A stretch of DNA of 56,019 nucleotides from a virus (IMGVR_UViG_3300036402_000107:1-56019); one strand, 5' to 3'. Shown: positions 1,178 through 48,416, counted from the first letter of the stretch. Numbers and translations: made by a program. Notes: a model not told the origin generated them from the sequence alone.

Positions 1178-3471
1178 CCCAGCAGCTCCGCAAAGCCCTG
1201 CAGATGGAAAAGGATCGCCTCCGCTACGAGGCGATCGGGATGATCCATGCCCGTGCCGCCGCCGCCCGTGCCCGGGGTGCCGTGCTCCGTACGTGGCTCC
1301 GCACCGGCGACGCGGGGGCGGTGCAGACCGCACTGGCCGTCCACCTCTCCCCGCTGATCCCCCTCGTCACGGACGGGATGATCGCGGGGCATCTCGCGGG
1401 CGTCTCCCGGACTCAGGAGAGCGTCGTGGAGCGTGGGGAGGGTCGTCGGGGCATCCGGCTGTCCTCCGCGTACGAGAACGCCCTCCGCTTCCTAAGAGAG
1501 CGTACCGGGATGACGGCGGAGCAGCAGGAGAGCTTACGCCTACGCTACGACACGGCGGCGACGCAGGTGGTCGCCGGTGCCACCAAGCAGGCTCAGGACA
1601 AGGTGAGCCAAGCGATCCGCGAGAGCATCGAGGCTGGCGACGGCGTCAAGCGTGGTAGCACCAAGGTCGCCGCCGCAATGGAAGCGGCGGGGCTGGGAGC
1701 ACAGAAGAAGCACACCCTCGAACAGGTCTTCCGGACGCAGACGCAGCTGGCCTACTCCGCCGGGCGGATGAACAGCTTGAGCGACCCGGCGATTCAGGAG
1801 ATCCTGTGGGGCTTCGAGTACGTGACCGTTGGCGACTCCCGCGTACGCCCCGCCCACTGCGAGATGGACGGCCACAAGGCACCGAAGGAAGACCCGATCT
1901 GGTCGAGGTGGACTCCGCCCAACGGCTATAACTGCCGCTGTGCGATCCTCGAGATCTTCGACGGCGGGACGCCTTCAACCAAGACGCCGGACGTCCAGCC
2001 CGACAAGGGCTTCGCGTTCAACCCGGGCGACCTCACCGAGGGCGTGGTGGAGGCGTCGACACCGCAGCCCGTGCTGAAGCCGATGAACACGCACCCGTCC
2101 GCTCCTCCCCCGGGAGCGTCGGGCAGCCAGACGGCACCGGCGGAGTACGACGCCGAGTACGAGATGTGGGCGAACACGCTCACTAAGGACGAGTTCAGGG
2201 CTCTGCGGGAATGGGAAGCGAACCCTGCAGCGATGGCCGACATACGTCAAGTGAGTGCTGGCCTTCCTCCCCTCTACGAGTCGCAGCAGACGGCACGCGA
2301 GAACTACGACCTCTTCACGACTGCGGCCTCGAAGTGCCCGCCGTTCGAGGGCGTCACCTACCGTGGTCTGGCCGACCCGCCCAAAGAACTGATGGATCAG
2401 CTCACGAACGTCGGGGGCGAGGTCTCGATCGACAAGTACTCGTCGGCGACGAAGTCCCGCAACGCGGCGGAGTGGTACGCTTCCCGCGTTCGTGCCATGG
2501 AGCTTGGGGAGGACGTCCCGGCACGGGTCTCCGTCGTCATGAAGATGAAGACCAAGACCGGGATGGATCTCGCGGGCATCACCGGGCAGAAGGCGTCCGA
2601 GGAGGTCGTGCTCCGCCCCGGCGTCCGGTACCGGGTCGTCGGCAAGCCCGTCACCGTCACCAGCCGGATGAAGGATCTGGAGACCAAGGAGGAGAAGAGC
2701 GTCACCTACCAGCAGGTCGAGCTTGAGGAGGTGGATCCCGCCGCTCCCCCCGCACCCACCAAGAACACGCCGGTCATCGCCCCCGCCGCAGAGGAAGCTA
2801 AGCCGGGCGACAAGCCGAAACCTCAACCCGGTCGGTACACCGGAACGTTAACCTACTCTTCGGCGTCGTCCGAGCAGACCCTAACAGACGCACTTAGGGG
2901 TTCAGGGCTAAAGACCGATGACCCTCACGTCGCCATCGCCGCGATGGTGCCCGACGCAGCCCGCTTCCCCGTCTTGAAGGTGCACGCCACGAAGGACGGA
3001 ATCAACGTGAAGGCAGTCACCGGGGACGGGAGCAGGATCGACCGAACCATCCGCTCCATCGGTGGCAGGCCGGTCATGATTAACAACGAGTTCTACATTC
3101 CTAAGGAAGCACAGGGCAAGGGGTACGGCACGCAGTTCTTCTCCGATCAAGTCGAGAATGCACAGCGGGTCGGGATAGCGGAGATCAGAACTTCAGCAGC
3201 TAGAAGTGGCACAGAAAACGGTTACTACACGTGGCCCCGTCTCGGTTACGATGCGAAGCTCGAAGACTTCCGCGACTACCTCCAAGCACGACTACCTGCA
3301 GGCTTTTCATGGACCCAGAACATAAGCGATCTCATGGCGACGCCGGAAGGGCGAGCTTACTGGAAGAAGTGGGGAACCGACGCGTACCTCAAGTTCGACC
3401 TCGACCCCGATAGTCTGTCGCTAAAGGTGCTCAAAGCGTACAAGGCGGAGAAGGCGAAGCGGAATGGCTAA
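1174..3471 (+). CDS. Minor head protein (Mu F/SPP1 gp7-like) fused to ART-like and GNAT-like domains
   Basis: Residues 1-265 match the phage head morphogenesis family: RTQTQLAYSAGRM near 186, DSRVRPAHCEMDG near 220, NGYNCRC near 250. Residues about 330-510 resemble an ADP-ribosyltransferase: YRGL near 394, SIDKYSSATKS near 418, and ASEEVVLRPG near 474 as the catalytic glutamate region, although the position two before that glutamate is Ser rather than the usual Glu or Gln. Residues about 560-765 look like a GNAT acetyltransferase: QGKGYGT near 646, then a YYTWPRLGYD motif common in toxin-linked GNAT domains. At 765 aa it is far longer than a simple Mu F protein. It starts in a 4-base overlap with portal. 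The enzymatic activities are inferred. Confidence 0.85.
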   Translation: MTQQLRKALQMEKDRLRYEAIGMIHARAAAARARGAVLRTWLRTGDAGAVQTALAVHLSPLIPLVTDGMIAGHLAGVSRTQESVVERGEGRRGIRLSSAYENALRFLRERTGMTAEQQESLRLRYDTAATQVVAGATKQAQDKVSQAIRESIEAGDGVKRGSTKVAAAMEAAGLGAQKKHTLEQVFRTQTQLAYSAGRMNSLSDPAIQEILWGFEYVTVGDSRVRPAHCEMDGHKAPKEDPIWSRWTPPNGYNCRCAILEIFDGGTPSTKTPDVQPDKGFAFNPGDLTEGVVEASTPQPVLKPMNTHPSAPPPGASGSQTAPAEYDAEYEMWANTLTKDEFRALREWEANPAAMADIRQVSAGLPPLYESQQTARENYDLFTTAASKCPPFEGVTYRGLADPPKELMDQLTNVGGEVSIDKYSSATKSRNAAEWYASRVRAMELGEDVPARVSVVMKMKTKTGMDLAGITGQKASEEVVLRPGVRYRVVGKPVTVTSRMKDLETKEEKSVTYQQVELEEVDPAAPPAPTKNTPVIAPAAEEAKPGDKPKPQPGRYTGTLTYSSASSEQTLTDALRGSGLKTDDPHVAIAAMVPDAARFPVLKVHATKDGINVKAVTGDGSRIDRTIRSIGGRPVMINNEFYIPKEAQGKGYGTQFFSDQVENAQRVGIAEIRTSAARSGTENGYYTWPRLGYDAKLEDFRDYLQARLPAGFSWTQNISDLMATPEGRAYWKKWGTDAYLKFDLDPDSLSLKVLKAYKAEKAKRNG

Positions 3472-5848: not shown

Positions 5849-6961
5849 ATGGCTCAAGGTTATGACCTACTGGCCGTCACGAGGGTGAACGAGATCACTC
5901 AGACCGTGGCGGAAGAACTCGAGATCCCGGGCTCGCTCCGGTTTCTCGACCGCACGCCCGTGGTCGCCGCCGAAGACGGCGAGATCATGGGGACGCACGA
6001 AGCGTACGTCGTGAGTGCCGACATCGTTGCCGACGATCAGGCGGCAGTCGTGCGTCAGGGCGGACGCTTCGTGCTCAACACGTCGGCGATCCCGAACATA
6101 AAGCAGGGCTCGCACATCACGCAGAGCATGCTGAACTTGCTGCGGCGGATCAACGCCGGTGGCGGCATCCCGAGCGACCGGGGTCTGATCACCGGCTACG
6201 TGACCCGGGAGATGCAGGCCAAGATCGTCTCCAACCGCATCATGATGAACCGCATGATCGCGGGCATGATGACCGATCTCTTCAGCTACACGAAGAACGG
6301 CATCATCTACGCCAACGTCTCGTGGGGCATGCCCGCCGACCTGAAGTTCAACCCGGCCACGCTCTGGACGATCGCGAACAAGGCGACGGCGACGCCGATC
6401 ACCGACCTGCAGCTGTACCTGTCGTACGCACAGCAGACCTACGGCGAGGTCTACAACCGCATCACGCTGTCGCAGACGCTCTTCAACAACGTGGTGGCGA
6501 CGGACAACTTCCGCACGTTCGCCCAGCTGTTCACGTCCGCTGCGAACTCCACCGCGACGTTCCCCACCAACGTCGGCTCCGTGATGCGTCCGCTCTTCGA
6601 GCAGGTCACCGGCCTGCAGGTCGAGATCGAGGACAACGTGTTCCGCGACGAGAACAACGACGGCACCGCAACCACGCAGCGTTTCCAGCCCGTCAACGTC
6701 GCGTACCTCTCGAACTCCGGCGACGACAACAACGCGGGCGTCTTCGACTTCGCCAACGCCATCGTCAACGAGACCGAGGTCGGGATCGTCCCGGGCACGC
6801 AGGTCATCGGGGGCGGGTTCGCCGCCCCGCAGTACGGCCCGGTCGGCTACGCCACCATCAAGGGCGACCTCAACCCCCCGCAGGTCACCCTGTGGGCGGT
6901 CACGCGTGGCTTCCCCCGCAAGAAGCGGGTCACGGCCACCGCCCGGATCACGGCCTACTAG
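5849..6961 (+). CDS. Major capsid protein (lambda gpE-like)
   Basis: At 370 residues and following protease/scaffold, this is the expected size and place for the capsid subunit. The sequence resembles the gpE-type capsid family (N-terminal PGSLRFLDRTPVVAAEDGEI, then the polar mid-region RITLSQTLFNNVVATDNFRTF and a C-terminal DLNPPQVTLWAVTRGFPRKK). AAGGA precedes the start at 5849. It is followed by a strong hairpin, consistent with a high-level transcript ending or being stabilised here. Confidence 0.85.
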   Translation: MAQGYDLLAVTRVNEITQTVAEELEIPGSLRFLDRTPVVAAEDGEIMGTHEAYVVSADIVADDQAAVVRQGGRFVLNTSAIPNIKQGSHITQSMLNLLRRINAGGGIPSDRGLITGYVTREMQAKIVSNRIMMNRMIAGMMTDLFSYTKNGIIYANVSWGMPADLKFNPATLWTIANKATATPITDLQLYLSYAQQTYGEVYNRITLSQTLFNNVVATDNFRTFAQLFTSAANSTATFPTNVGSVMRPLFEQVTGLQVEIEDNVFRDENNDGTATTQRFQPVNVAYLSNSGDDNNAGVFDFANAIVNETEVGIVPGTQVIGGGFAAPQYGPVGYATIKGDLNPPQVTLWAVTRGFPRKKRVTATARITAY

Positions 6962-16373: not shown

Positions 16374-18412
16374 TCGCAGTAATGTACGTTCTGGGCATCA
16401 CCTCGCTGGTCTACATGGTCGTTTACGCGGTCGTCTCGACGGCGATCTCCTACGGCATCAGCTACTTGCTCGGCAGGATGAACAAGCCGAGACAGCAGAC
16501 CGCACAGGAGTCTCAGCCGACGCTCTCCACGCGTGGTTCCCGCCTGACCCTCCTGCTCGGCCGTCGCCGCGTCGCCCCGGTCGTGCCGTGGGTCGGTGGC
16601 CGCACCGTCAAGAAGAACAGCAAGGCACAGTACTACAAAGAGAAGGGGATGCACGCAATCTGCCTTGGCCCGATCGATGCGATCCTCGAGATCTACGACG
16701 GCAGCAAGAAGATCCTCACGCCGACCATCGGCCCGCTCTACCGGGCGACGACGCCAGCCGGGTCACAGTTCACGGTTGAAGACGTCGGCACCTTCCGCGT
16801 CTACTGGGGCGAGAACGAGCAACCCCTCGACCCGATGCTTTACGAAGAGATGGGCATCGGCAGCATGTGGCCCGGCGTCGCCTACGTCGTCTGGGACAAC
16901 AAGGCGGTGAACCCGGGGTGGATCTGGAACGACGTACAGTACGTGGTCGAGCGGATCTTGACGACCGAAACCAATCTGACCGACTCGATCCCCCACCTCC
17001 CCCGCACGACGCGTCCCCGCCGTGGGGCGATCGACGACAGCGGCGTCAACCCCGCTCACGCGATCTGGTACTTCCTCACCGCCCCGAGTCCATACGGGCT
17101 GGGCGTTCCGGCTCAATGGCTCGACGGCGGTGCCTTTGAGTACCTAGGGCAGCTGTGCGTGGCGGAGCACCTGCCCGTCAACATACTGGCGAGGGACGGC
17201 GTCAACGGCGACCAAGTCCTCAGCGAACTCATGCAGGAGGTCGGCTTCTTCATCACGCAGGTCGGCGAGAAGTTGGTGCCGATCGTCGTCCGCCCCCCGG
17301 GCAACACGACGCTCCCGCAGATCACCATCGACGCACAGCAGCAGCCCCTCCCCGAGATCACGAGGCAGCACGGCGAGACGACGCCGACGCGGAGCATGTA
17401 CCGCATCTTCGACGAGGAGATGGGCTGGAAGCTCTCCGACCTCAACGTCGACAACGACGCCGCCGCCCGCTCCCGGGGTGCTCAGCAGTCCAAGGAAGTG
17501 CAGCTGCAGAACGTCACCAACAGGCTCACCGGCACCGAGATCATGCAGCGTATGGTGCGGGACGACTCGATCGACGGCGAGACCTACAGCTTCGAGCTGA
17601 TGCGGGGTGCCCGCGACCTCTGGCCCGGTCAGCTCTTCGTCGTCCCGAACTTCGGCACGCTCCGCGTCGCCAGCAAGAAGCCGAGCTTTATGAACTCAAC
17701 GGTCAGCATCGACGCCGTTCTGGAGAACTACGGGATACGGCTGCACGACCGGTACGTCGACGGCGTCGGCGACCCCCGCACCGACGGCATACAGCCCGTC
17801 GCCCAAGACCCCTATGTGCGTCTCTTCATCGTCCCCGAGGCGATTCTCAGCGTCGGCTCCCTCTCGATGTGGGTGCTCCGCGTCCGTGCCCACGGCGGGA
17901 TCGTCAGTGCAGAGGTTATGTTCAGTGCGACCGGTGCGAGCTACGCCCGGGTCAACCGCGACGAGCCGCACGTGACCGCCGGGACGATCAACCGCCCGAT
18001 CCTGATCGACGAGGCGACCCACAACGGAGGAGTGCTCGACGCCGCCCTGAGCTTCACGCCCTACAACGGCGACACTGACGAGATCGACGACCTCGCTGGC
18101 AACGACGCGGAGTGGGAGGAGGGCGACCAGATCGCCGTGATCGACGACGAGGTGTTCCTTGTGCAGAGGCTCGCACCGGTCGAGGGCGGGTTCAGGATCG
18201 ACGGCTTCCGCCGGGCGGTCTGGGGCACGGTGCCCGCAAACCACCTGCAGGGGACACCGGTCTACATCTTCAGGATCTCCGACCGCATCACCTACACGAG
18301 GCACCTCGTCCGTGCCGGGAACACCCTGCACGTCAAGACCCTGCCCTACACTTCCACCGACGAGATGACCCTCGCCACCGTCGCCGACCACGTGATCGCC
18401 TTCCCGGCGTGA
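16370..18412 (+). CDS. Tail tip/baseplate protein (GTA megatron-like)
   Basis: At 680 residues, the ATG overlaps the peptidase stop. It has an N-terminal hydrophobic segment (residues about 4-35, with ISYGISYLLG), then a phage tail 3/gpJ-like body: RSMYRIFDEEMGWKLSDLNV near 345-365 and LWPGQLFVVPNFGTLRV near 420. The end (VDGFRRAVWGTVP-like) resembles the C-terminal part of tail tip proteins. It is the last gene of the tail operon. Confidence 0.75.
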   Translation: MIAVMYVLGITSLVYMVVYAVVSTAISYGISYLLGRMNKPRQQTAQESQPTLSTRGSRLTLLLGRRRVAPVVPWVGGRTVKKNSKAQYYKEKGMHAICLGPIDAILEIYDGSKKILTPTIGPLYRATTPAGSQFTVEDVGTFRVYWGENEQPLDPMLYEEMGIGSMWPGVAYVVWDNKAVNPGWIWNDVQYVVERILTTETNLTDSIPHLPRTTRPRRGAIDDSGVNPAHAIWYFLTAPSPYGLGVPAQWLDGGAFEYLGQLCVAEHLPVNILARDGVNGDQVLSELMQEVGFFITQVGEKLVPIVVRPPGNTTLPQITIDAQQQPLPEITRQHGETTPTRSMYRIFDEEMGWKLSDLNVDNDAAARSRGAQQSKEVQLQNVTNRLTGTEIMQRMVRDDSIDGETYSFELMRGARDLWPGQLFVVPNFGTLRVASKKPSFMNSTVSIDAVLENYGIRLHDRYVDGVGDPRTDGIQPVAQDPYVRLFIVPEAILSVGSLSMWVLRVRAHGGIVSAEVMFSATGASYARVNRDEPHVTAGTINRPILIDEATHNGGVLDAALSFTPYNGDTDEIDDLAGNDAEWEEGDQIAVIDDEVFLVQRLAPVEGGFRIDGFRRAVWGTVPANHLQGTPVYIFRISDRITYTRHLVRAGNTLHVKTLPYTSTDEMTLATVADHVIAFPA

Positions 18413-18588
18413 CGGAGGCACGGGAGCGGGTCGGGGGCTACCACGACCTTCCCCGGGCGTCTCGGACGCTCCCGGAGGGCAGGACGGACGAACGGAGAGG
18501 GTCGAGGTGGGGGCGGGAGGAGCAGCCGGTAGGCTCACAGGAAAGCGACGAACCATCGTCAACGAAGCCATGGAACGGGCGGGACTAG
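18409..18588 (+). CDS. Possible small protein after tail tip gene
   Basis: A GTG at 18409 overlaps the tail tip stop (GTGA) and opens a 59-residue highly charged frame (many Arg, Glu, Gly). There is no homology I recognise. It contains the first copy of an 18-bp repeat also found at 48417. It could be translated by coupling or be intergenic filler in GC-rich DNA. Confidence 0.3.
   Translation: MTEARERVGGYHDLPRASRTLPEGRTDERRGSRWGREEQPVGSQESDEPSSTKPWNGRD
18436..18453 (+). repeat. 18-bp direct repeat, copy 1
   Basis: GGCTACCACGACCTTCCC occurs here and at 48417-48434. In both places it is followed within 5-15 bases by CGTCTCGGA, so the shared block is longer than the exact match. One frame reads ATTTFP in both copies. 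Confidence 0.8.
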
Positions 18589-18600
18589 TCGCGGGTCATG

Positions 18601-18632
18601 AGGAAGGCAAAGCCCCCTCGTCCCATCTCTGT
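18601..18632 (+). repeat. 32-bp inverted repeat, left copy
   Basis: This segment matches the reverse complement of 51675-51706 at 31 of 32 positions (mismatch at 18621). Both copies are intergenic. The core GGCAAAGCC is itself a short hairpin. Confidence 0.9.
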
Positions 18633-18655
18633 ATGGCAGCAGGAGCAACAAGACC

Positions 18656-18907
18656 ATGAGCAAGAAGGGCTTCACCGTGCCGGTATGGCAAAAGAAACAC
18701 GCACCGGTCTGCGACTGCGGTAACGTCATGTCGCCCTGCATGGTGACCGTGGACGACGAGGGCAGGAAGCCGGAGCGTCTGCCGATGTGGCTCTGCCTCG
18801 AGCCGTCCCACGTGTGCACGGCCTCGCTCTACGTCCGGGCGATCCCCGACGACGAGCTGGAGGAGCAGTGGCGGACGCCCGCTTATAAACGAAAGCGGGC
18901 TTTATAA
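18656..18907 (+). CDS. Small cysteine-rich protein
   Basis: This 83-residue protein has AGGAG upstream. Cysteines in CDCGNVMSPC and later C residues in LCLEPSHVC suggest a zinc-binding fold. The final codons overlap the stem of a terminator, so it is the last gene before the accessory cassettes. The function is unknown. Confidence 0.65.
   Translation: MSKKGFTVPVWQKKHAPVCDCGNVMSPCMVTVDDEGRKPERLPMWLCLEPSHVCTASLYVRAIPDDELEEQWRTPAYKRKRAL
18877..18907 (+). terminator. Terminator before cassette 1
   Basis: GCCCGCTT pairs with AAGCGGGC across an 8-base loop, followed by TTTATAA. Confidence 0.75.
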
Positions 18908-18917
18908 TCGGGGGGAC

Positions 18918-18946
18918 TTGCGTCAACAGACCCCTTGTGGTATAAT
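18918..18946 (+). promoter_or_regulatory. Promoter P1 (cassette 1)
   Basis: TTGCGT, a 17-base spacer ending TGTGG, then TATAAT. The same architecture recurs at 20273, 21461 and 23976, and the bases after the -10 (GCGTC) are also shared. Confidence 0.85.
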
Positions 18947-18953
18947 GCGTCTT

Positions 18954-19002
18954 CGGTCGGGTTTCCCGATCGGCCGATCCGGCGGGTTCCGGGTTGAAAG
19001 GA
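18954..19002 (+). promoter_or_regulatory. Structured 5' leader L1
   Basis: Hairpin A pairs 18954-18961 with 18965-18972 (one G-U); hairpin B is CCGG, loop CGGGTT, CCGG at 18979-18992; then GAAAGGA is the ribosome binding site for the GTG at 19010. Confidence 0.75.
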
Positions 19003-19009
19003 CGAGACC

Positions 19010-19435
19010 GTGCAGACGATCAAGACACTCCAAGGACAGTTTTTCCTCCTCAGCAACTTCGCCCCGACTCCCGTCAGCTTCGAGGGCGTCCTCTTCCCGA
19101 CCGTTGAACACGCCTTCCAAGCCCAGAAGACGCACGACAACGCCGAGCGTCGGCGGATCGCGAGCCTCCCCAAGCCCGGTCAGGCGAAGCACGCCGGGAA
19201 GCGAGTCAAGCTCCGGGAGGATTGGGAGCAGGTCAAGGTCGGGATCATGAAGGCGATTCTCGTCGCCAAGTTCGAGCAGAACGCAGCAGCACGGGACGTC
19301 CTTTATCGAACCGGCGACGCCCGGATCGAGGAGGGCAACCTTTGGAACGACACCTTTTGGGGCGTCAGCCTTAAGACCGGGAAGGGCAAGAACACCCTCG
19401 GGCTCCTCCTCGAAGAGATCCGCAACACGCTTTGA
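19010..19435 (+). CDS. NADAR (YbiA-like) domain protein
   Basis: At 141 residues, this contains FLLSNFAP near 12-19, VEHAFQAQK near 32-40 and NLWNDTFWGVSLKTGKGKN near 109, the conserved blocks of the NADAR/YbiA family. These enzymes are N-glycosidases acting in NAD and ADP-ribose chemistry, and some remove ADP-ribose from nucleobases. In a phage this suggests counter-defence against ADP-ribosylating toxins or NAD handling (inference). It is the first gene of cassette 1, with start GTG after GAAAGGA. A hammerhead ribozyme begins right after its stop. Confidence 0.88.
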   Translation: MQTIKTLQGQFFLLSNFAPTPVSFEGVLFPTVEHAFQAQKTHDNAERRRIASLPKPGQAKHAGKRVKLREDWEQVKVGIMKAILVAKFEQNAAARDVLYRTGDARIEEGNLWNDTFWGVSLKTGKGKNTLGLLLEEIRNTL

Positions 19436-19490
19436 GCCGAAACGCCCGAGAGGGCGTCTGCAGCGATCGACCCCGCTGCACTGACGAGGC
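19436..19490 (+). ncRNA. Type II hammerhead ribozyme HH1
   Basis: Order: GCC (stem II 5' strand), GAAA, stem III CGCCC/GGGCG with loop GAGA, UC cleavage site at 19457-19458, stem I TGCAGCG/CGCTGCA (19459-19465 with 19474-19480), CTGACGA at 19481-19487, GGC (stem II 3' strand). All core nucleotides are present. The stem I loop GACC can pair with GGTT just after stem II. Confidence 0.88.
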
Positions 19491-19515
19491 AGGTTCCTTG
19501 ACTCAGGAGACACCG

Positions 19516-19836
19516 ATGATTCTCGAGATCCAGAAGTGGCAGCAGGACGTGCAGGCCAAGAACCTGCACCGGGCGGACGTCGTGCACAAGTTCAGCGGCA
19601 TTAAGGTCGGCTTCATGACGCAGCAGACCTACAAGTGCAAGGGCGGTCTGGGAGCGACGTTCAAGATGTACGCCCTGCTCTCGAACGGCACCGACACCAC
19701 CTACGTCTGGTCTTCCTCGATCAACGGCGGCGACCTCACCCACGAGAACGAGCAGTGTGCTCGCCGGTGCGGGCTGGAGATCCTGACCCGCTACGTCGAG
19801 AAGCACGGCGTGCCCGGGGTTAAGCAGATCGCTTGA
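19516..19836 (+). CDS. Hypothetical protein, second gene of cassette 1
   Basis: ATG at 19516 with CAGGAG upstream; 106 residues. It is mixed alpha/beta with a central Gly/Lys-rich part (TYKCKGGLGATFKMYALL) and conserved-looking cysteines (ARRCGLEIL). No family is recognised. It lies downstream of HH1, so its mRNA would start with the ribozyme 3' cleavage product. Promoter P2 overlaps its stop codon. Confidence 0.65.
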   Translation: MILEIQKWQQDVQAKNLHRADVVHKFSGIKVGFMTQQTYKCKGGLGATFKMYALLSNGTDTTYVWSSSINGGDLTHENEQCARRCGLEILTRYVEKHGVPGVKQIA

Positions 19837-19861
19837 CACCAACGCGTTCGTGTGGTAGAAT
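19833..19861 (+). promoter_or_regulatory. Promoter P2
   Basis: TTGACA, 17 bases ending TGTGG, TAGAAT. The -35 is a perfect consensus, unlike the TTGCGT of the other cassette promoters. Confidence 0.8.
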
Positions 19862-19879
19862 CCGTGGTTGGGGGTCTGA

Positions 19880-19906
19880 CCCGGCAGGTTCCGGGGTTCG
19901 AGAGGA
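19880..19906 (+). promoter_or_regulatory. Leader hairpin L2
   Basis: CCCGG, loop CAGGTT, CCGGG at 19880-19895, then AGAGGA as ribosome site. The loop CAGGTT is identical to the sequence that follows every hammerhead core. Confidence 0.65.
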
Positions 19907-19916
19907 TCGGTGCTCT

Positions 19917-20180
19917 GTGTTCTTTGTCTTCGCTGAAGATCTCTGCTCCTGCCTCGTCGGCCCGTTCGAGACCCGCGAGGAGGCGGAGGGTCATCTGGCT
20001 TGGTGCCGTGACGAGCGGCACGACGGTGCGACCATGGAGGTCGTGTCTCGGTTCATCGCCGAGCGTCTGTCGCCGGACATGACGATGACCCCCGCCCTAG
20101 ACCGGGCGTCCTCCCCCGTCGCCAGCGACGCCCTGCAGCCGTGGGACGACCTCGACGCGAACGGCCGTCAGGTCTTCTAA
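19917..20180 (+). CDS. Hypothetical protein driven by P2
   Basis: The GTG at 19917 with AGAGGA ten bases upstream gives 87 residues. The N-terminus FFVFAEDLCSCLVGPFETREEAEGHL resembles small phage proteins that begin with a beta hairpin. The earlier in-frame start at 19833 would run through promoter P2 and is rejected. A terminator follows. Confidence 0.6.
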   Translation: MFFVFAEDLCSCLVGPFETREEAEGHLAWCRDERHDGATMEVVSRFIAERLSPDMTMTPALDRASSPVASDALQPWDDLDANGRQVF

Positions 20181-20208
20181 ACCGAACAACAACTTAACGA
20201 AGATCAAG

Positions 20209-20247
20209 AGACCCCTCCCCGTGACCCGGGCGAGGGGTCTTGCGTTA
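20209..20247 (+). terminator. Terminator between P2 unit and P3
   Basis: AGACCCCTC pairs with GAGGGGTCT (20232-20240), followed by TGCGTT. Confidence 0.75.
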
Positions 20248-20272
20248 TAAAGGGCGTCCGCGTCTATACTAC

Positions 20273-20301
20273 TTGCGTTAACGCAAAAGCTGTGGTATAA
20301 T
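20273..20301 (+). promoter_or_regulatory. Promoter P3 (cassette 2)
   Basis: TTGCGT, 17-base spacer ending TGTGG, TATAAT. Confidence 0.85.
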
Positions 20302-20308
20302 CCTCTTT

Positions 20309-20360
20309 CGGTTGCGGATTCGCAACCGGCCGATCCGGCGGTGAGTCCGGACTGAAAGGA
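20309..20360 (+). promoter_or_regulatory. Structured 5' leader L3
   Basis: Hairpin A CGGTTGCG/CGCAACCG (20309-20328); GGCCGA linker; hairpin B TCCGG/CCGGA with loop CGGTGAGT (20334-20351); GAAAGGA at 20354-20360. Hairpin A keeps pairing although its sequence differs from the other leaders. Confidence 0.78.
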
Positions 20361-20364
20361 CTAG

Positions 20365-20769
20365 ATGATGATTCGCCAGTTCATTCCGATCGGCTTCGAG
20401 TTCCCCGGTGGCTACACTTGGTGCGTCGACGACGAAAAGAAGGAATCGCACGCCGTCTACCCTGACGGGTCGTCCAAGCCCGCGACTGAGTCTTACTCCG
20501 GTGACTTCCTGTCCTTTGCCTTAGATTCAGTCGATCAAGAAGTCTGGCTGGAGCTGACCCGCCCTCTCGTCTGGATCGACACCGGCCTCGAAGGCCAGCC
20601 GTACGTCGAGGTCTACGAGGTCTTCGTCTGCACCGCCGTGATCGACGGCGTGAAGGTGGCCCGGTACTCGAACCCGGAGAAGGACGAAATGGTCGAGGTG
20701 CCCGTGAGCGAGATCCGCACCGGTCGCGGGGTCTTCGCCGACAAGAACGTCTTCGACTGCTCCAAGTAA
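20365..20769 (+). CDS. Hypothetical protein, first gene of cassette 2
   Basis: 134 residues, starting after leader L3. It appears beta-rich with acidic patches (GFEFPGGYTWCVDDEKKESH, then PEKDEMVEVPVSEIRTGRG). There is no recognised family. Its stop codon abuts hammerhead HH2, as in cassettes 1 and 3. Confidence 0.65.
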   Translation: MMIRQFIPIGFEFPGGYTWCVDDEKKESHAVYPDGSSKPATESYSGDFLSFALDSVDQEVWLELTRPLVWIDTGLEGQPYVEVYEVFVCTAVIDGVKVARYSNPEKDEMVEVPVSEIRTGRGVFADKNVFDCSK

Positions 20770-20825
20770 GCCGAAACGCCCGCGAGGGCGTCGAGCGAGG
20801 ATTGACCTCCCGCTCCTGACGAGGC
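20770..20825 (+). ncRNA. Type II hammerhead ribozyme HH2
   Basis: GCC, GAAA, stem III CGCCC/GGGCG with loop GCGA, UC at 20791-20792, stem I GAGCG/CGCTC (extendable by AGG/CCT), CTGACGA at 20816-20822, GGC. Loop GACCT can pair with AGGTT after the core. It begins directly after the upstream stop codon. Confidence 0.88.
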
Positions 20826-20852
20826 AGGTTCCTCCTGACGGAGAATGACGAG

Positions 20853-21251
20853 ATGACCATCACCCAGATCAAGCGGAAGCACAACCCCCATCAACCCGTG
20901 GGCCGCTGGATTCGCCCCGCGAAGCGGATGGCGATCTACCTCAGGGATCGCTTCCAGTGCCTTTACTGTGGTGCCGACCTCCACGGCGTCACCGACCCCC
21001 GCCACATCCAGCTCGACCACAAGACCCCGGTGAGCAAGGGAGGCTCGAACCTCGAGCACAACGTCTTCACGACCTGCATGCGTTGCAACTGCTCGCGGGG
21101 ATCGAAGCCCTTCCGGTCGTTCGCGACCACGGGGGCGAAGCAGCGGGCCAAGCGTCAGCTCTCGCTCTCGCTCAAGCCGTACCTCGCCCTCGCCAAGGCC
21201 ATCTGCTCGGGGGCGGTCAGCAGGGAGCAGGCTCTCAGCGAGATCCGCTAG
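20853..21251 (+). CDS. HNH endonuclease
   Basis: This 132-residue protein is the second gene of cassette 2. It has FQCLYCGADL (CxxC), LDHKTPVSKGGSN with the catalytic His, N in EHNVFTTC, and CMRCNCSRG (second CxxC), a complete HNH domain with structural zinc, at residues 30-85. It may be a homing nuclease, a packaging-associated nickase or a host-DNA nuclease. It is not near the terminase, which argues against the packaging role. A GGAG site lies upstream. Confidence 0.85.
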   Translation: MTITQIKRKHNPHQPVGRWIRPAKRMAIYLRDRFQCLYCGADLHGVTDPRHIQLDHKTPVSKGGSNLEHNVFTTCMRCNCSRGSKPFRSFATTGAKQRAKRQLSLSLKPYLALAKAICSGAVSREQALSEIR

Positions 21252-21265
21252 CGTCCGTGAAACGA

Positions 21266-21291
21266 CCGGGCACCCCCGGGGTGATGAAAGG
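21266..21291 (+). promoter_or_regulatory. Leader hairpin L7 without promoter
   Basis: CCGGG (21266-21270) can pair with CCCGG (21275-21279), followed by GAAAGG at 21286-21291. It is the same hairpin-plus-SD design as the cassette leaders, here inside an operon. Confidence 0.5.
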
Positions 21292-21296
21292 TGACG

Positions 21297-21449
21297 ATGA
21301 TCTACCGAATCCTGCAAGCTCGCTTCGGCCGTTGGGGGCGTCGCCTCGCCCTCCTCTGCGTCGCAATCTGGGTCTTCACGCTCCTCTGCTGCCTGCTGGC
21401 CTTTGGCTGGCAGCTGTTAGGGCGTTATAAAAGCGGCGGGGCTTTATAG
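21297..21449 (+). CDS. Small single-span membrane protein
   Basis: A 50-residue frame starting ATG at 21297 with GAAAGG upstream. The N-terminal 15 residues are basic (QARFGRWGRR), followed by one hydrophobic span with LLCVAIWVFTLLCCLLAFGW. Positive-inside orientation would place the N-terminus in the cytoplasm. It could be a holin-like or superinfection protein; the sequence alone does not decide. Confidence 0.55.
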   Translation: MIYRILQARFGRWGRRLALLCVAIWVFTLLCCLLAFGWQLLGRYKSGGAL

Positions 21450-21460
21450 CAGGCAGGGGA

Positions 21461-21489
21461 TTGCGTAGGCTTACAGCCTGTGGTACAAT
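21461..21489 (+). promoter_or_regulatory. Promoter P4 (cassette 3)
   Basis: TTGCGT, 17-base spacer ending TGTGG, TACAAT, then GCGTCCTC as in the sister promoters. Confidence 0.83.
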
Positions 21490-21496
21490 GCGTCCT

Positions 21497-21548
21497 CAGT
21501 CGTGGGATCACGACTGGCCGACCCGGCGGTGAGTCCGGGATGAAAGGA
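21497..21548 (+). promoter_or_regulatory. Structured 5' leader L4
   Basis: Hairpin A CAGTCGTG/CACGACTG (21497-21516), GGCCGA-like linker, hairpin B CCCGG/CCGGG with loop CGGTGAGT (21522-21539), GAAAGGA at 21542-21548. Confidence 0.78.
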
Positions 21549-21556
21549 CGTGCGAC

Positions 21557-21748
21557 GTGAGCGAGACGAACCTCCCCAAGTGGATCGAAGACCTGAAGGC
21601 GGACTTTATCGAGTGGAGCGGCGGCTTCGGCCCCGAGGAGTGCGAGGTCGATGAGATCACCAAGTACCTCGAAGTCAGCGAGATCGACGAGGACGACGAT
21701 CGATTCGGTGCCCTCTGGGATCTCCACAACGGCGAGCTTGAAGACTGA
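21557..21748 (+). CDS. Small acidic protein, first gene of cassette 3
   Basis: GTG start after leader L4; 63 residues, strongly acidic (EVSEIDEDDDRFGAL). Small acidic phage proteins often mimic DNA or bind host enzymes, but nothing here proves that. The stop codon abuts HH3. Confidence 0.65.
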   Translation: MSETNLPKWIEDLKADFIEWSGGFGPEECEVDEITKYLEVSEIDEDDDRFGALWDLHNGELED

Positions 21749-21804
21749 GCCGAAACGCCCGCGAGGGCGTCCGACCGAGACTAACCCCCGGTCGCTGATG
21801 AGGC
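21749..21804 (+). ncRNA. Type II hammerhead ribozyme HH3
   Basis: GCC, GAAA, stem III CGCCC/GGGCG with loop GCGA, UC at 21770-21771, stem I CGACCG/CGGTCG (21772-21777 with 21789-21794), CTGATGA at 21795-21801, GGC. Loop AACC is fully complementary to GGTT after the core. Confidence 0.9.
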
Positions 21805-21833
21805 AGGTTCCTCGATCTCGAAAGGATCACGTC

Positions 21834-22991
21834 ATGGTTGCAGGAAAGATCACCCCCGCTGGTCACATGGTCAAGGGTCTCGACGGCGTTGAGCGTTTCG
21901 TCGCCCACGAGGCCGATCAGGACGGCCCGGTCACCGAGACGACGAAGACCCCGCGTCTCGCCCCCAAGAGCAAGGCCGAGAAGAAGGCCGACAAGGCCGC
22001 GAAGAAGGGCAAGCCGGTCGTCGAGACCGTCGACGCCGGTGGCGGCATCTTGGTCGACGTCGCGGACAGCAAGCCCGCGAAGAAGGCCAAGAAGGTCAAG
22101 ACCGCTGGCCCGCTCTCGACCGAGGTCTCCAACCCGGAGCAGGAGGAAGTGAAGAAGACGACGTGCAACCACGGCGTCAAGTCCAACGAGAGCATCCTCT
22201 GGGAGATCGCCGACAAGTACAGCAACGCCTGTGCGACCCGGATCTCTGACCCGTTCACGGGCGAGAGCACCGGCTTCGCGATGGTGCACGGCTGGGACGG
22301 TGCCGCCGAGCAGTGGCACTCCGTCCGCCCGGTGAGCGACCGGTACAAGCCGATCCGGACACAGGATCTCATCGAGATCGCCGTCGAGCGTCTGCAGGGG
22401 ACGCCGCTGATGGCCGAGAAGATCCGCACCGACCGCTTCGGCACTTCGCTCGAGGTCAAGATCCCGATCAACCGCCCGATCGAGATCGGCAAGGGCGTCG
22501 CGTTCGATCAGGGTCACCCGTGGACTCGCCACGGCGAGCACACCAAGCGGGACGTGCTCTACCCGGTCGTGAACATACGTAACGCCTACGACGCCACCTC
22601 CTCGATCATCGTCGACGTCGGGCTGTTCCGGATGATCTGCAGCAACGGCATGAAGATCATGCTCGCGGGAGTCGGTGCCAAGGCGATCCACACGAAGCAC
22701 GAGGTCGCCCGCGTCATCGAGACCATCGCCAAGCAGGAACTCACCGGCGACCTCGACTTCGTCCGCAAGCTCTCGGTCGCGAAGCTCGACGTCAAGGACG
22801 TCGCGAAGATCATGGGCGACCGCGTCCCCGAGAAGTGGCAGAAGGAGCTAGCGGAGTACGCCAAGCTCGGCGGGAACACCGCTTGGTCGTGGATGAACGG
22901 CCTGAGCTACCTGAGCACCCACGAGTATAGTCTCCTCCGCTCGCGTCAGCTTGACCCGATCATGACGGCGATTCAGAAGCTCGCCGCCTAG
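21834..22991 (+). CDS. DUF932-like phage/plasmid protein
   Basis: ATG at 21834 with GAAAGGA upstream; 385 residues. The first 110 residues are a lysine/alanine-rich tail; the rest resembles the DUF932 (phage/plasmid TIGR03299-like) family: NHGVKSNESILWEIADKY, then LYPVVNIRNAYDATSS and GLFRMICSNGMKI. Its molecular role is not established to my knowledge, though it is frequent near phage replication genes. It is the second gene of cassette 3, downstream of HH3. Confidence 0.75.
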   Translation: MVAGKITPAGHMVKGLDGVERFVAHEADQDGPVTETTKTPRLAPKSKAEKKADKAAKKGKPVVETVDAGGGILVDVADSKPAKKAKKVKTAGPLSTEVSNPEQEEVKKTTCNHGVKSNESILWEIADKYSNACATRISDPFTGESTGFAMVHGWDGAAEQWHSVRPVSDRYKPIRTQDLIEIAVERLQGTPLMAEKIRTDRFGTSLEVKIPINRPIEIGKGVAFDQGHPWTRHGEHTKRDVLYPVVNIRNAYDATSSIIVDVGLFRMICSNGMKIMLAGVGAKAIHTKHEVARVIETIAKQELTGDLDFVRKLSVAKLDVKDVAKIMGDRVPEKWQKELAEYAKLGGNTAWSWMNGLSYLSTHEYSLLRSRQLDPIMTAIQKLAA

Positions 22992-22995
22992 GGCC

Positions 22996-23052
22996 GAGAC
23001 CGCCGACCACGGACGCCCTCCCGACGCGGAGGGCGTCCTGCTCGTTGGTCTC
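22996..23052 (+). terminator. Branched hairpin after DUF932-like gene
   Basis: Outer stem GAGACC/GGTCTC encloses an 11-bp stem GGACGCCCTCC/GGAGGGCGTCC. No T run. Confidence 0.55.
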
Positions 23053-23073
23053 AGACCAGAAGGGAAGCAGGAG

Positions 23074-23346
23074 ATGGACAAGACGAACAGCCACCGCCAC
23101 AAGTGTGCAGTGTGCGGCTTCGTTTGGCGTCACGCGAACGAGTCCCCCGGGCGTGACAACGACGTGGCCCACACGTGCCGGTGCGGCAACCAGCAGTTCT
23201 TCATCTACCGGGGCGAGGACAAGGCACAGGTCGCGACGTGCGGGCGTCCCTGCAGGCAGGGCGACCGACCCGTCCTCGCCCCCGGCGTCGTGTATCAAGC
23301 TTACTTCGGCGACCTGCACCCCGACAACAAACCCGGCGACCTCTAG
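23074..23346 (+). CDS. Zinc-ribbon small protein
   Basis: 90 residues with HKCAVCGFVW (CxxC) near residue 10 and HTCRCG near 33, a likely four-cysteine zinc ribbon, then additional cysteines in ATCGRPCRQG. AGGAG lies upstream. It could bind nucleic acid; no specific function is visible. Confidence 0.65.
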   Translation: MDKTNSHRHKCAVCGFVWRHANESPGRDNDVAHTCRCGNQQFFIYRGEDKAQVATCGRPCRQGDRPVLAPGVVYQAYFGDLHPDNKPGDL

Positions 23347-23353
23347 CCGACGA

Positions 23354-23378
23354 CCCGGCGTGACCCGGGCTGAAAGGA
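23354..23378 (+). promoter_or_regulatory. Leader hairpin L6 without promoter
   Basis: CCCGG/CCGGG (23354-23369) followed by GAAAGGA at 23372-23378. This is an internal copy of the hairpin-B-plus-SD element. Confidence 0.65.
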
Positions 23379-23385
23379 ACGCAAC

Positions 23386-23877
23386 GTGAACGAAGCACAG
23401 AAGAAGATTCTCGAGAAGCACCCCGGAGCCCGGCTGCAGAAGCTGGTCTACGTCGGCGTCCGACCCGGCAACAAGACCAAGCGGGTGTACGGCTACGTCA
23501 AGGTCAGTGACGACGACCTCAAGTCAGGTAACCCGGTGGTCAATGCCGCACAGGCGATGTACTGGAAGAAGAGCCTCTACCCGGGCACGGCGGGGACGGT
23601 CATCGAGATCGTCATGGAGGAGGGGGCGGACGGCGTCTCGATCTGGAAGGCCGTAAACTACGTGGGCCGCTGGCCGAACCGCGAGCAGTGCGTCGCGTGG
23701 CAGGCGGAGCACGACGAGACGGTGGCCGACCTCGACAGCAAGAAGGACGCGATGCACGACTCGATCATCGAGACGCTGGCACCGGTCGCGAAAGCCTACC
23801 GACACTCGAACCGAGCGGGACGGGCCGTGCTCCTCGCCAAGGTCATCCGGTACCTTACGGCCTCGTCCTTCGACTAG
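23386..23877 (+). CDS. Hypothetical protein
   Basis: GTG start with GAAAGGA; 163 residues, likely alpha/beta. The N-terminal half reads like a small beta domain (LQKLVYVGVRPGNKTKRVYGYVK-type), the C-terminal half is helical (KKDAMHDSIIETLAPVAKAY). No family is recognised. A terminator follows at 23921. Confidence 0.65.
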   Translation: MNEAQKKILEKHPGARLQKLVYVGVRPGNKTKRVYGYVKVSDDDLKSGNPVVNAAQAMYWKKSLYPGTAGTVIEIVMEEGADGVSIWKAVNYVGRWPNREQCVAWQAEHDETVADLDSKKDAMHDSIIETLAPVAKAYRHSNRAGRAVLLAKVIRYLTASSFD

Positions 23878-23920
23878 ACGCAACGCGTCCCGACCCCCCG
23901 ACGTACAACCCGGCGAAGAC

Positions 23921-23956
23921 GACCGCTCTCGGGGATTATAGAGAGCGGTCTTCTTT
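23921..23956 (+). terminator. Rho-independent terminator before cassette 4
   Basis: Perfect 10-bp stem GACCGCTCTC/GAGAGCGGTC, 10-base loop, then TTCTTT. Confidence 0.85.
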
Positions 23957-23975
23957 ATAACGCAACAGGAAGTAC

Positions 23976-24004
23976 TTGCGTTGACGACCAGCCTGTGTTA
24001 TAAT
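23976..24004 (+). promoter_or_regulatory. Promoter P5 (cassette 4)
   Basis: TTGCGT, 17-base spacer, TATAAT, GCGTTCTCGG as in P1. Confidence 0.85.
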
Positions 24005-24010
24005 GCGTTC

Positions 24011-24060
24011 TCGGTCGGGGTTTCCGACCGAGCCGACCCGGCGACGAACCCGGGATGACG
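24011..24060 (+). promoter_or_regulatory. Structured 5' leader L5
   Basis: Hairpin A TCGGTCGG/CCGACCGA (24011-24031), hairpin B CCCGG/CCGGG (24037-24054), then GACGGAG before the ATG at 24071. Confidence 0.75.
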
Positions 24061-24070
24061 GAGACGACCA

Positions 24071-24376
24071 ATGACCAACGAGACTTTCAACGCCGCCTTT
24101 TCGCAGAAGTCCGCCTTTGCGGCCATCCGCTCGCTCGGACTGACCGTCAAGAAGACTGAGGACGGCGAGATCCGAGTGAACTTCAAGGGTCACAGCGAGG
24201 AGACCGCCTACTACACCACCGACCTGAAGGACGCTTACGACACCGCCCGTTCGATGGCTGCCCTCAAGGCGAGCAGCAGCCCCAAGAAGAAGTGTCACCT
24301 TTGCGGCGGCACCGACCACACCTCCTCGCAGTGCGAGTTCACCGGCGAAGCCGAAGCCACCGACATGAATCGCTGA
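24071..24376 (+). CDS. Zinc-knuckle protein, first gene of cassette 4
   Basis: 101 residues. The C-terminal part has CHLCGGTDHTSSQC, a CxxCxxxxHxxxxC zinc knuckle that in other proteins binds single-stranded nucleic acid. The N-terminal 70 residues are a small alpha/beta unit. HH4 follows after about 37 bases rather than immediately. Confidence 0.7.
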   Translation: MTNETFNAAFSQKSAFAAIRSLGLTVKKTEDGEIRVNFKGHSEETAYYTTDLKDAYDTARSMAALKASSSPKKKCHLCGGTDHTSSQCEFTGEAEATDMNR

Positions 24377-24412
24377 AACGAGACGACCCGCCCGTGGGTC
24401 ATGAAACGGGAA

Positions 24413-24467
24413 GCCGAAACGCCCTGCGGGGCGTCGGGCGGGAATGACCTCCCGCCCCTGATGAGGC
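24413..24467 (+). ncRNA. Type II hammerhead ribozyme HH4
   Basis: GCC, GAAA, stem III CGCCC/GGGCG with loop TGCG, UC at 24434-24435, stem I GGGCGGGA/TCCCGCCC (24436-24443 with 24450-24457), CTGATGA at 24458-24464, GGC. Loop GACC can pair with GGTT after the core. Confidence 0.9.
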
Positions 24468-24497
24468 AGGTTCCTCGACTCAAGAACGGAGGCCCCC

Positions 24498-25184
24498 GTG
24501 GCCAACAAGCTCGCAGCTGCTATCGCGTTCCGTCAGTACGCCAAGACCAAGACCCGCAAGGTCGGTGACGCCGTCGACGACCCGATCGCCGACAAGCTCG
24601 CCAAGGCCCAGTCCGCCGACGACATGGCCAAGCTCGCCATCGAGTCGGGCATCCCCAAGGACGTTGTCGAGGAGAAGGCCAAGAAGGCCCCGAACCCCGG
24701 TCAGTTCCGCATGACCATCGGGAACCTGATCCGTGGCGTTTACGCCCGGGTCGAGAAGTACCACACCCTCACGGGCGGGCGGGTCGATGCGGCGGACGTC
24801 GGGACGAAGAAGCTCTTTCAGGCGAAGATGGCGGAGTACCGCAAGGCCAACCGCCCCGTGAAGGACGGCCCGAAGCCCTCGACTGGGAAGAAGAAGACCG
24901 AGACCGCCAAGAAGGGCGGCAGGGTCGCTGCCTCCAAAAGCGGCAAGGGCGACGCTGCGGCGACTCCCAAGGGAGCACCCAGCAAGTCCGAGGCCGCTGG
25001 CCGTGGCAAGGGAAAGAAGGGTGGCGACGGTTCTGCCAAGAAGTCCCGCTGGCAGCGGAACGCCAGCAACAAGAAGGGCAAGCCCGCTGCTGACGCTGCT
25101 GACGGTGCGGGCGTGGGCGAGCAGGGCGAGCAGGAGGGCGGGCAGTCCAGTCTTGCCGAGGCAATTGCCGAAGCCAACAGCTGA
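24498..25184 (+). CDS. Lys/Ala-rich basic protein, histone-like tail
   Basis: GTG start with CGGAGG; 228 residues. The first 125 form a helical domain (PIADKLAKAQSADDMAKL); the last 100 are Lys/Ala/Gly/Ser-rich (GKGKKGGDGSAKKSRWQRN) like histone H1 tails, suggesting nucleic-acid binding. It is the second gene of cassette 4, downstream of HH4. The function is not known. Confidence 0.65.
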   Translation: MANKLAAAIAFRQYAKTKTRKVGDAVDDPIADKLAKAQSADDMAKLAIESGIPKDVVEEKAKKAPNPGQFRMTIGNLIRGVYARVEKYHTLTGGRVDAADVGTKKLFQAKMAEYRKANRPVKDGPKPSTGKKKTETAKKGGRVAASKSGKGDAAATPKGAPSKSEAAGRGKGKKGGDGSAKKSRWQRNASNKKGKPAADAADGAGVGEQGEQEGGQSSLAEAIAEANS

Positions 25185-25188
25185 TCTC

Positions 25189-25395
25189 GTGAACGCGTGG
25201 GCGGTGAGGCTGGGTGGCAACCCCCGCCTCACCGCCTTGTTTCTGGACGTCACCTTTAGAGCCTTCCCCGACGAGTGGTGCATGCGAGCTTTTGGCGTCC
25301 CCTACCCTCCGCTCTCCGTGGTCTTCGGCAACGGGTCACAGGAGCGGTACCAAGAGATGATCCGCCGCCCGGGAAGCTACGTGAAGAGAGACTGA
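25189..25395 (+). CDS. Hypothetical protein
   Basis: GTG at 25189, 4 bases after the previous stop; 68 residues, with no clear ribosome site, so coupling is likely. The longer open frame from 25003 overlaps the basic protein and is not credible. Contains EWCMRAFGVPYPPLS. Unknown family. Confidence 0.5.
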   Translation: MNAWAVRLGGNPRLTALFLDVTFRAFPDEWCMRAFGVPYPPLSVVFGNGSQERYQEMIRRPGSYVKRD

Positions 25396-25399
25396 CCCC

Positions 25400-25999
25400 A
25401 TGGCCAAGACCAAGACCCCGAAACCCAAGAAGGATTACGGCGACGGCGAGCGACCCGGCAAAGAGCCACCGCTCGCCGTCGCCGTCCACCGGCGGAAGAA
25501 CCACGAACAGATGATCCTTGAGTGTGCCGAGCAGATCGAGCCGGGCTGTCCGCTCGACCCGATCGCGAGAGCCTACGGACTCCTGCAGGCTCTCGGCCAG
25601 ATGTACGACTCGCTCAGGGTCGCCGTCGACGAAGCGGTCGCCGACAAGATCCGTGCTGACGGCCCGTTTGTTCTCGGTGAGGAGAAGTTCTACGTCGGCA
25701 AGAAGAAGAACACCAAGCAGACCGCCACGCACTCCGACCTCTACCTGTTCCTGATGGACTTGACGGGCGGGGATACGGAGACGGTGATGAGCTGCCTGAG
25801 TTCCAACGCGTGGAAGCACGGCACGATCAAGAAGCTCCTCGAAGAGAAGCTGACGGAGGGGGCGGACGCCGAGATCGCCTTTCTCAAGCTCTTCGAGGTC
25901 AGGGAAGAAGACGAAGTGAAGACGGGCAAGCCGACGAAGAAGGACGGCGACTTGCAGCGAATCCCCGTGGCTCTCCTCAAGAGGCTACAACAGTCATGA
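25400..25999 (+). CDS. Hypothetical protein
   Basis: 199 residues, start ATG four bases after the preceding stop. It has a lysine-rich N-terminus (KTKTPKPKKDYGDGE), then a mostly helical body with EQIEPGCPLDPIARAYGLLQ and a charged C-terminus. It resembles no family I can name. It overlaps the next gene by ATGA. Confidence 0.6.
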   Translation: MAKTKTPKPKKDYGDGERPGKEPPLAVAVHRRKNHEQMILECAEQIEPGCPLDPIARAYGLLQALGQMYDSLRVAVDEAVADKIRADGPFVLGEEKFYVGKKKNTKQTATHSDLYLFLMDLTGGDTETVMSCLSSNAWKHGTIKKLLEEKLTEGADAEIAFLKLFEVREEDEVKTGKPTKKDGDLQRIPVALLKRLQQS

Positions 26000-26658
26000 G
26001 AGTAACACTCCTCAAGCGTCTGCTCGTCAAGAACGATGAGCACTGGTTCCGCAAGGACACGACCCTGCTCGTGCCGCCGCTCGTCGGCGAAGTCCTGTAC
26101 ATCAGGCGTCGCGAGGGCGTCCTTGGCCTCCCCGAGTCCTTCGAGGACACGGTGAGTCCGCTGCTCCGCACCGCCGTGGTCGAGGGCTCGGATCGCCTCG
26201 TGGTCTTCCTCGACTACGTGACCGAGATCTTCGAGTCCGACTACGGCCCGCTAGACCGCTCTTCGCACGAAGCGTGGGGTCACTGGTTCTACTGCTACGG
26301 CTTCGCTCCCACCGAAGAGACCGACCCCATGAAGCTCACGCCGTGGAGCGTCCCCGAGAGCCGTCAGAAGGCGGAAGCACCGAGGCACGCGTCGCCGTGC
26401 TGCGGCATGGAGAGCACCGAGACCGGGCTCGTCGGCACCGCCTACCTGTACACCTGCTACGGCTGCCGCCACATCTGGCACTACGCGGGCGGGCGGAAGG
26501 TCATCGGGACGCCGACCCAGCAGGAACCGGGCGTAAGGCTCTCGGACGCCATGGCACCGCTCGACCCCACGGCACCCCTGCAGTTCGCCGAGCACCCCGA
26601 TGGCTTCCCGGGCACCGACGAGGGCTCGCACTATATGTCCCAGACGAAGCTCCCGTGA
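25996..26658 (+). CDS. Hypothetical protein with zinc-binding segment
   Basis: The ATG overlaps the previous stop; 220 residues. The middle has SPCCGMES and YTCYGCRHIWHY, a Cys4 zinc-ribbon like unit near residues 130-160. The N-terminal domain is hydrophobic/beta (LVVFLDYVTEIFESDYG). It is last in this operon; a terminator follows. Confidence 0.6.
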   Translation: MRVTLLKRLLVKNDEHWFRKDTTLLVPPLVGEVLYIRRREGVLGLPESFEDTVSPLLRTAVVEGSDRLVVFLDYVTEIFESDYGPLDRSSHEAWGHWFYCYGFAPTEETDPMKLTPWSVPESRQKAEAPRHASPCCGMESTETGLVGTAYLYTCYGCRHIWHYAGGRKVIGTPTQQEPGVRLSDAMAPLDPTAPLQFAEHPDGFPGTDEGSHYMSQTKLP

Positions 26659-40728: not shown

Positions 40729-41133
40729 TCAGAGGGCGAAGCCGGACTCCACCAGACGCCACTCCTTGAGGAGGGCGAGGACGCGATCCCGGATCGTCAT
40801 GTTGCGGAAGCGACCGAGGAACTTGCAGATCGCCGTCTCGTGGGTCATCGGCTCCTCGAAGTCGCTGGCCCGAAACACGATCGTCGGCGAGTCGACGGGC
40901 TGATCGACGATCACGAAGTCGATGCCGTGGCCTCCTGAGCCGATCAGGGCGATCGTGTTCTCCCGGTAGACGGTGGCGACGAGGCAGATGCCGAAAGCGA
41001 CGGCCCGATAGTCGAGGGTGAAGTCCCAGTCGGCGGACGCGGGATTGGCGGGATCAGCCTTGACGCTCTCGCTGACGTGACGGTCTTGACGATCCCAGTA
41101 GTCGACGGCGAGGGGAACAGCGGACGAACCCAT
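40729..41133 (-). CDS. Hypothetical protein, first gene of leftward operon
   Basis: On the minus strand GGAGG lies 5 bases before the ATG at 41133; 134 residues. FGICLVATVYRENTIALIGSG and CKFLGRFRNMTIRD are notable. No family is recognised. It is driven by the strong promoter at 41194-41222 and may be an early or regulatory protein. Confidence 0.62.
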   Translation of the reverse strand: MGSSAVPLAVDYWDRQDRHVSESVKADPANPASADWDFTLDYRAVAFGICLVATVYRENTIALIGSGGHGIDFVIVDQPVDSPTIVFRASDFEEPMTHETAICKFLGRFRNMTIRDRVLALLKEWRLVESGFAL

Positions 41134-41193
41134 GACAACCTCCATGGTGAGGGAAAGGCGGGACACGACGGCAACACGCCGCCGAGATCACTC

Positions 41194-48410: not shown

Positions 48411-48416
48411 GGGGAT

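Follow-up and report, generated by a model that had tools for sequence, protein, structure and literature searches.

A 56,019-nucleotide stretch of viral DNA (IMGVR_UViG_3300036402_000107, referred to here as the window) carries four motifs, at positions 19436, 20770, 21749 and 24413, that are, judged from their sequence, true type II hammerhead ribozymes of a tailed phage. We consider it probable, at roughly 80%, that these ribozymes split the A–B mRNAs of promoter-led units with hairpin leaders into independently decaying halves, acting as a divider and not as a switch. The four copies are on the same strand at spacings of 1.0–2.7 kb, each between one A gene and one B gene (Table 1), as an initial annotation of the window had placed them. 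The same annotation had identified all four as type II hammerheads, and this is borne out by comparison with Rfam, by structure, by covariation and by the pseudoknot test described below.

The sequence from 18000 to 26000 was read directly, and the whole window was compared with Rfam on both strands. The Hammerhead_II model (RF02276, gathering score 37 bits) matched at 24412–24475 with 45.3 bits, at 19435–19498 with 40.4, at 20769–20833 with 37.9 and at 21748–21812 with 36.4. The match to this model, which had been proposed as a check in the initial annotation, was therefore obtained above the cut-off for ribozymes 1, 2 and 4, while ribozyme 3 misses it by 0.6 bit (E = 1.2e-4 over 7.6 kb). No other Rfam family reached its own cut-off anywhere in the window, and miRNA and CRISPR families, to which there were weak matches in the region, were rejected as identities with scores far under their cut-offs. 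A structural scan that required the core letters and three stems found exactly four matches on the plus strand and no hammerhead on the minus strand, and when the window was shuffled 60 times with a first-order Markov model, the same scan found a mean of 0.0 hammerheads. The minimum-energy (MFE) fold is the hammerhead fold for all four copies, with loops closing stems I and III and stem II left open.

The elements follow a common order in the four copies, GCC–GAAA–stem III ACGCCC/GGGCGT–C–stem I–CTGAYGA–GGC, confirming the shared core that had been read from the sequence earlier. Stem II (GCC/GGC), GAAA, stem III and the cleavage-site C are identical across the copies, and the conserved core of CUGANGA, GAAA and the cleavage-site UH is present in each of them. 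The covariation claimed for stem I also holds: its five core-proximal pairs (TA/GC/CG/GC, GC/AT/GC/GC, CG/GC/AT/GC, AT/CG/CG/CG and GC/GC/CG/GC over the four copies) are Watson–Crick in 20 of 20 cells, with at least one two-sided (compensatory) change at every pair. Furthermore, GACC or AACC in loop I can pair with GGTT after stem II in each copy, a potential loop I/3′-tail pseudoknot of at least four pairs that the initial annotation did not mention. Among viral hammerheads more widely, loop I and the tail are complementary over four or more pairs in 55%, compared to 24% when tails were swapped between ribozymes. Stem I was paired over at least 5 bp in 81% of matches, all found without demanding stem I pairing, compared to 6% with swapped arms. 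The copies share the core, the open stem II, the pseudoknot potential and the phage gene-flanking setting with known type II hammerheads (RF02276; PMC3088659), but differ from them in a stem II of 3 bp. The pseudoknot letters are also different, with ACC/GGU here, whereas the letters of the RF02276 consensus can pair UGG/CCA.

Table 1. Genes, ribozymes and putative control elements around the four hammerheads (window coordinates)
Feature	Position	Strand	Remarks
Terminator-like hairpin	18877–18910	+	Intrinsic type, T-rich tail; upstream of cassette 1
Promoter 1	18918–18946	+	TTGCGT-17 nt-TATAAT; extended -10 TGTGG
Leader 1	18947–19009	+	Two hairpins, then GAAAGGA ribosome-binding site; homologous part 18947–19004
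Gene A1	19010–19435	+	NADAR domain protein, 141 aa; Pfam NADAR E 3e-27
Type II hammerhead ribozyme 1	19436–19495	+	Predicted cleavage after C19458; A1 stop ends 19435
Gene B1	19516–19836	+	106 aa, no family match
Promoter of C1	19833–19861	+	TTGACA-17 nt-TAGAAT with TG; overlaps B1 end
Gene C1	19917–20180	+	87 aa; no ribozyme ahead
Terminator-like hairpin	20210–20239	+	After C1; read from sequence
Promoter 2	20273–20301	+	TTGCGT-17 nt-TATAAT
Leader 2	20302–20367	+	Homologous part 20302–20361
Gene A2	20368–20769	+	133 aa, no family match; alternative ATG 20365
Type II hammerhead ribozyme 2	20770–20830	+	Predicted cleavage after C20792; preceding stop ends 20769
Gene B2	20853–21251	+	HNH endonuclease, 132 aa
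Promoter 3	21461–21489	+	TTGCGT-17 nt-TACAAT
Leader 3	21490–21556	+	Homologous part 21490–21550
Gene A3	21557–21748	+	63 aa, acidic, no family match
Type II hammerhead ribozyme 3	21749–21809	+	Predicted cleavage after C21771; preceding stop ends 21748
Gene B3	21834–22991	+	DUF932 protein, 385 aa; Pfam E 3e-7
Gene C3	23074–23346	+	90 aa
Gene D3	23386–23877	+	163 aa; leader-like hairpin without promoter ahead
Terminator-like hairpin	23921–23958	+	GACCGCTCTC/GAGAGCGGTC, then TTCTTTAT; read from sequence
Promoter 4	23976–24004	+	TTGCGT-17 nt-TATAAT
Leader 4	24005–24070	+	Homologous part 24005–24064
Gene A4	24071–24376	+	101 aa, Cys/His-rich near C-terminus; weak match phrog_7884
Type II hammerhead ribozyme 4	24413–24472	+	Predicted cleavage after C24435; 36 nt past A4 stop (24376)
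Gene B4	24498–25184	+	228 aa, lysine/alanine-rich C-terminal half, no family match

All four units have, upstream of the A gene, a near-repeat of ~90–110 nt made up of a promoter with an extended -10, a two-hairpin leader and a ribosome-binding site. A promoter-like site thus precedes every A gene, while none was recognised between A and B, and terminator-like hairpins precede units 1, 2 and 4. A fifth promoter (19833) serves C1, which has no ribozyme ahead of it. A simple promoter scan picked up just one of these five sites, and the promoters and terminators are putative elements read from the DNA itself. The repeated leaders, which could be cis-regulatory, had no match in Rfam, and the exact promoter–leader pattern was absent from the other viral contigs searched. 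In the four homologous 5′ leaders, the first hairpin covaries, with two-sided changes at columns 9, 12 and 14, and the second is conserved ahead of the ribosome-binding site; in leaders 1–3, the GGA within this site is a further possible pairing partner for the 5′ end. Palindromic stretches that contain TTATAA or TTTATAA occur repeatedly upstream of the promoters (18883, 18902, 20245, 21425 and 23955), and some of these are terminator tails.

The gene pairs flanking the ribozymes are a NADAR protein with an uncharacterized protein, and uncharacterized proteins with an HNH endonuclease, with a DUF932 protein and with a lysine-rich protein. The A and B proteins show no resemblance to one another; thus, the non-coding parts look copied but the genes do not, and gene duplication was rejected as the origin of the cassettes. 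A search of viral contigs with the DUF932 protein returned no relative. The capsid protein search gave three contigs at 39% identity, none of which contains a hammerhead, and no close relative that conserves these four positions was found. A close ribozyme pattern was absent from the bacterial genomes searched.

In the mechanism we propose, host RNA polymerase would transcribe A and B together from the sigma-70-like promoter, a co-transcription suggested by the promoter-like sequences. The ribozyme would fold, with the loop I/tail pseudoknot locking the fold, and would be expected to cut after the UC in the infected cell; the four cut positions predicted in the initial annotation are correct (Table 1). 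Hammerhead cleavage leaves a 2′,3′-cyclic phosphate and a 5′-OH. By this chemistry, the A mRNA would keep its stop codon and a 23-nt tail (longer for A4), with the stem III hairpin and a 2′,3′-cyclic phosphate end, and the B mRNA would begin with a 5′-OH and the stem I hairpin immediately after it. The two halves, each with structure near both ends, would then be translated and degraded separately. The cutting of bicistronic mRNAs proposed earlier for this window fits the anatomy of the units, as well as earlier results, in vitro and in E. coli, for hammerhead arrays of other phages (PMC3088659).

Three of the ribozymes directly follow a stop codon and the fourth lies 36 nt past one, in agreement with the initial reading. 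To place this in context, we used a sample of 144 distinct viral hammerheads whose flanks were long enough, counting only stops that close open frames of 50 codons or more. In 114 of the 144, such a stop ends no more than 8 nt upstream of GAAA, and in 79 it lies at exactly -2 or -3, where ~0.4 would be expected (background 0.22 per offset); in the next 12 nt, no long-frame stop was found in this sample. The placement is kept in 99 of 125 clusters after related upstream sequences were collapsed. Stops at -2 are always UAG, the G of which is the first stem II base (UAG-CC-GAAA). UAG makes up 48% of hammerhead-adjacent stops compared to 23% for long ORFs at the same loci, an excess that is due mostly to this fused geometry. 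The downstream start codon follows at a median of 26 nt. The phrase 'stop codon' is absent from PMC3088659, and no paper in our full-text literature search reports the placement rule; subscription literature was outside its scope, and we claim no priority. Tight abutment to the stop is not essential, as ribozyme 4 shows by its distance. The 36-nt insert (24377–24412) between the A4 stop and ribozyme 4 contains a small hairpin, GACCC/GGGTC.

This geometry could also mean that division is coupled to translation. A ribosome terminating at the A stop would cover the 5′ strand of the ribozyme (the stem II arm, GAAA and part of stem III), cleavage would occur only without heavy translation of A, and B expression or mRNA stability would track A translation. 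The sharp peak of the stop-to-GAAA distance at 2–3 nt, with the empty 12 nt that follow, points this way, as does the footprint of bacterial ribosomes, which reaches ~10 nt beyond the stop. However, compaction explains the spacing equally well, since the gap just fits the ribozyme, the pseudoknot and the ribosome-binding site, and ribozyme 4 begins 36 nt past the stop; we regard such coupling as unlikely. We are likewise doubtful of a more general formulation, in which terminator, promoter, two-hairpin leader, A, hammerhead and B form a standard module used in at least four copies with unrelated genes, and phage ribozymes are generally fused to stops, linking ribosome termination to ribozyme folding. 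That the ribozyme chiefly sets B translation, through access to the ribosome-binding site upon cleavage, appears very improbable. CCTC, TCCT or CTCC, which are complementary to ribosome-binding sites, do occur in 23% of post-stem II tails against 9% when shuffled, but the predicted accessibility of the site in precursor and product (0.32/0.38, 0.48/0.48, 0.50/0.62 and 0.45/0.19) changes little or in opposite directions among the four copies, and tail-to-site complementarity is 19% against 17% for shuffled tails. Sequestration of the site by the ribozyme tail was rejected, with no excess over shuffles and no consistent effect of cleavage.

Hammerheads that follow one another on a strand would yield RNA with 5′-OH and 2′,3′-cyclic phosphate ends, which are substrates for ligation, and the ribozymes might on these grounds delimit RNA units that become circular or ligated, as in viroids or retrozymes. 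Against this, terminator- and promoter-like sites lie between ribozymes that are 1.0–2.7 kb apart, one transcript need not span two of them, and spliced or circular products were sought in other arrays and not found (Perreault et al., PMC3088659); we consider this outcome highly improbable. The lowest probability, close to nil, goes to the motifs being decayed or chance look-alikes without activity. The shortfall of ribozyme 3 against the Rfam gathering score would suit such a reading, but the core letters are intact in all four copies, stem I carries compensatory changes and the shuffles contained none.

Division of A–B mRNAs by self-cleavage, the reading that we favour, has precedents. Prophage hammerhead clusters that flank genes have been described, with a proposed function in mRNA processing (Perreault et al. 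2011, PMC3088659), and the cutting of gene-length mRNAs from long phage transcripts has already been proposed for them (PMC3088659). Clustered prophage hammerheads cleave in vitro, and the triple array of Agrobacterium cleaves in E. coli (PMC3088659). The prophages of Clostridium scindens, Azorhizobium and Agrobacterium in that study share with the window an arrangement of several ribozymes around individual genes or small gene blocks; in contrast, each ribozyme here is in a separate promoter-led gene pair. Together with the Streptomyces phages below, these prophages support the earlier statement that hammerheads are known in phages.

A search of IMG/VR with the core pattern matched at least 119 stretches. 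In the contigs behind 50 loci among the matches listed, RF02276 counts reach 9, 7, 6 and 5 per contig, and further viral contigs contain 8 and 6. The cultured Streptomyces phages Issmi and Alvy have 11 hammerheads per genome, VieEnRose and Puginator 10, and Tefunt 8. With 5–9 per uncultured contig and 8–11 per Streptomyces phage, four copies are nothing out of the ordinary in a phage of this type, and the initial view that such a family is unusual has to be given up. The Streptomyces phages share with the window type II hammerheads between small genes, often starting at an annotated stop, but their copies are in one tightly packed block. VieEnRose (ON526983.1), the only genome for which the whole block was read, has ten unannotated type II hammerheads at 41117–48713, all on one strand and amid tightly spaced genes that share this strand, and similar arrays are present in Issmi, Alvy, Puginator and Tefunt. 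The distances from the VieEnRose ribozymes to the nearest annotated CDS end are 0, 0, 3, 3, 5, 8, 11, 26, 41 and 44 nt.

The RAGATH concept describes small phage-type genes beside self-cleaving ribozymes of several classes; the window likewise has phage genes beside ribozymes, but holds hammerheads only. In another viral contig (IMGVR_UViG_3300034980_000253), four twister-P5 ribozymes alternate with type II hammerheads in the same stop–ribozyme–start slots, which points to self-cleavage between genes, and not to one fold, as the property that they share. TAG is the nearest upstream long-frame stop at 8 of 8 Rfam-listed elements of this contig.

Clustered phage hammerheads and the idea of mRNA processing were known before; what is worth following here is the layout of the module and the stop-codon rule. 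The module in the window suggests that self-cleaving RNA is a routine phage means of separating neighbouring mRNAs, and the stop-codon placement, together with cultured Streptomyces phages that carry 8–11 copies, offers a direct route to testing the role of the hammerheads. Among 11 loci with at least three hammerheads, only in this window does a repeat of promoter and leader precede all the gene pairs with a ribozyme, as judged with a crude promoter pattern; the promoters of other phages may be different. Repeated short leaders were seen at locus L045, and a repeated leader hairpin at locus L105. In the latter, a hammerhead-bearing contig, the hairpin leader (CTGACCTCCCCAGAGGGTGGGG...) stands before genes at 2978–3048, 3384–3443 and 5960–6033.
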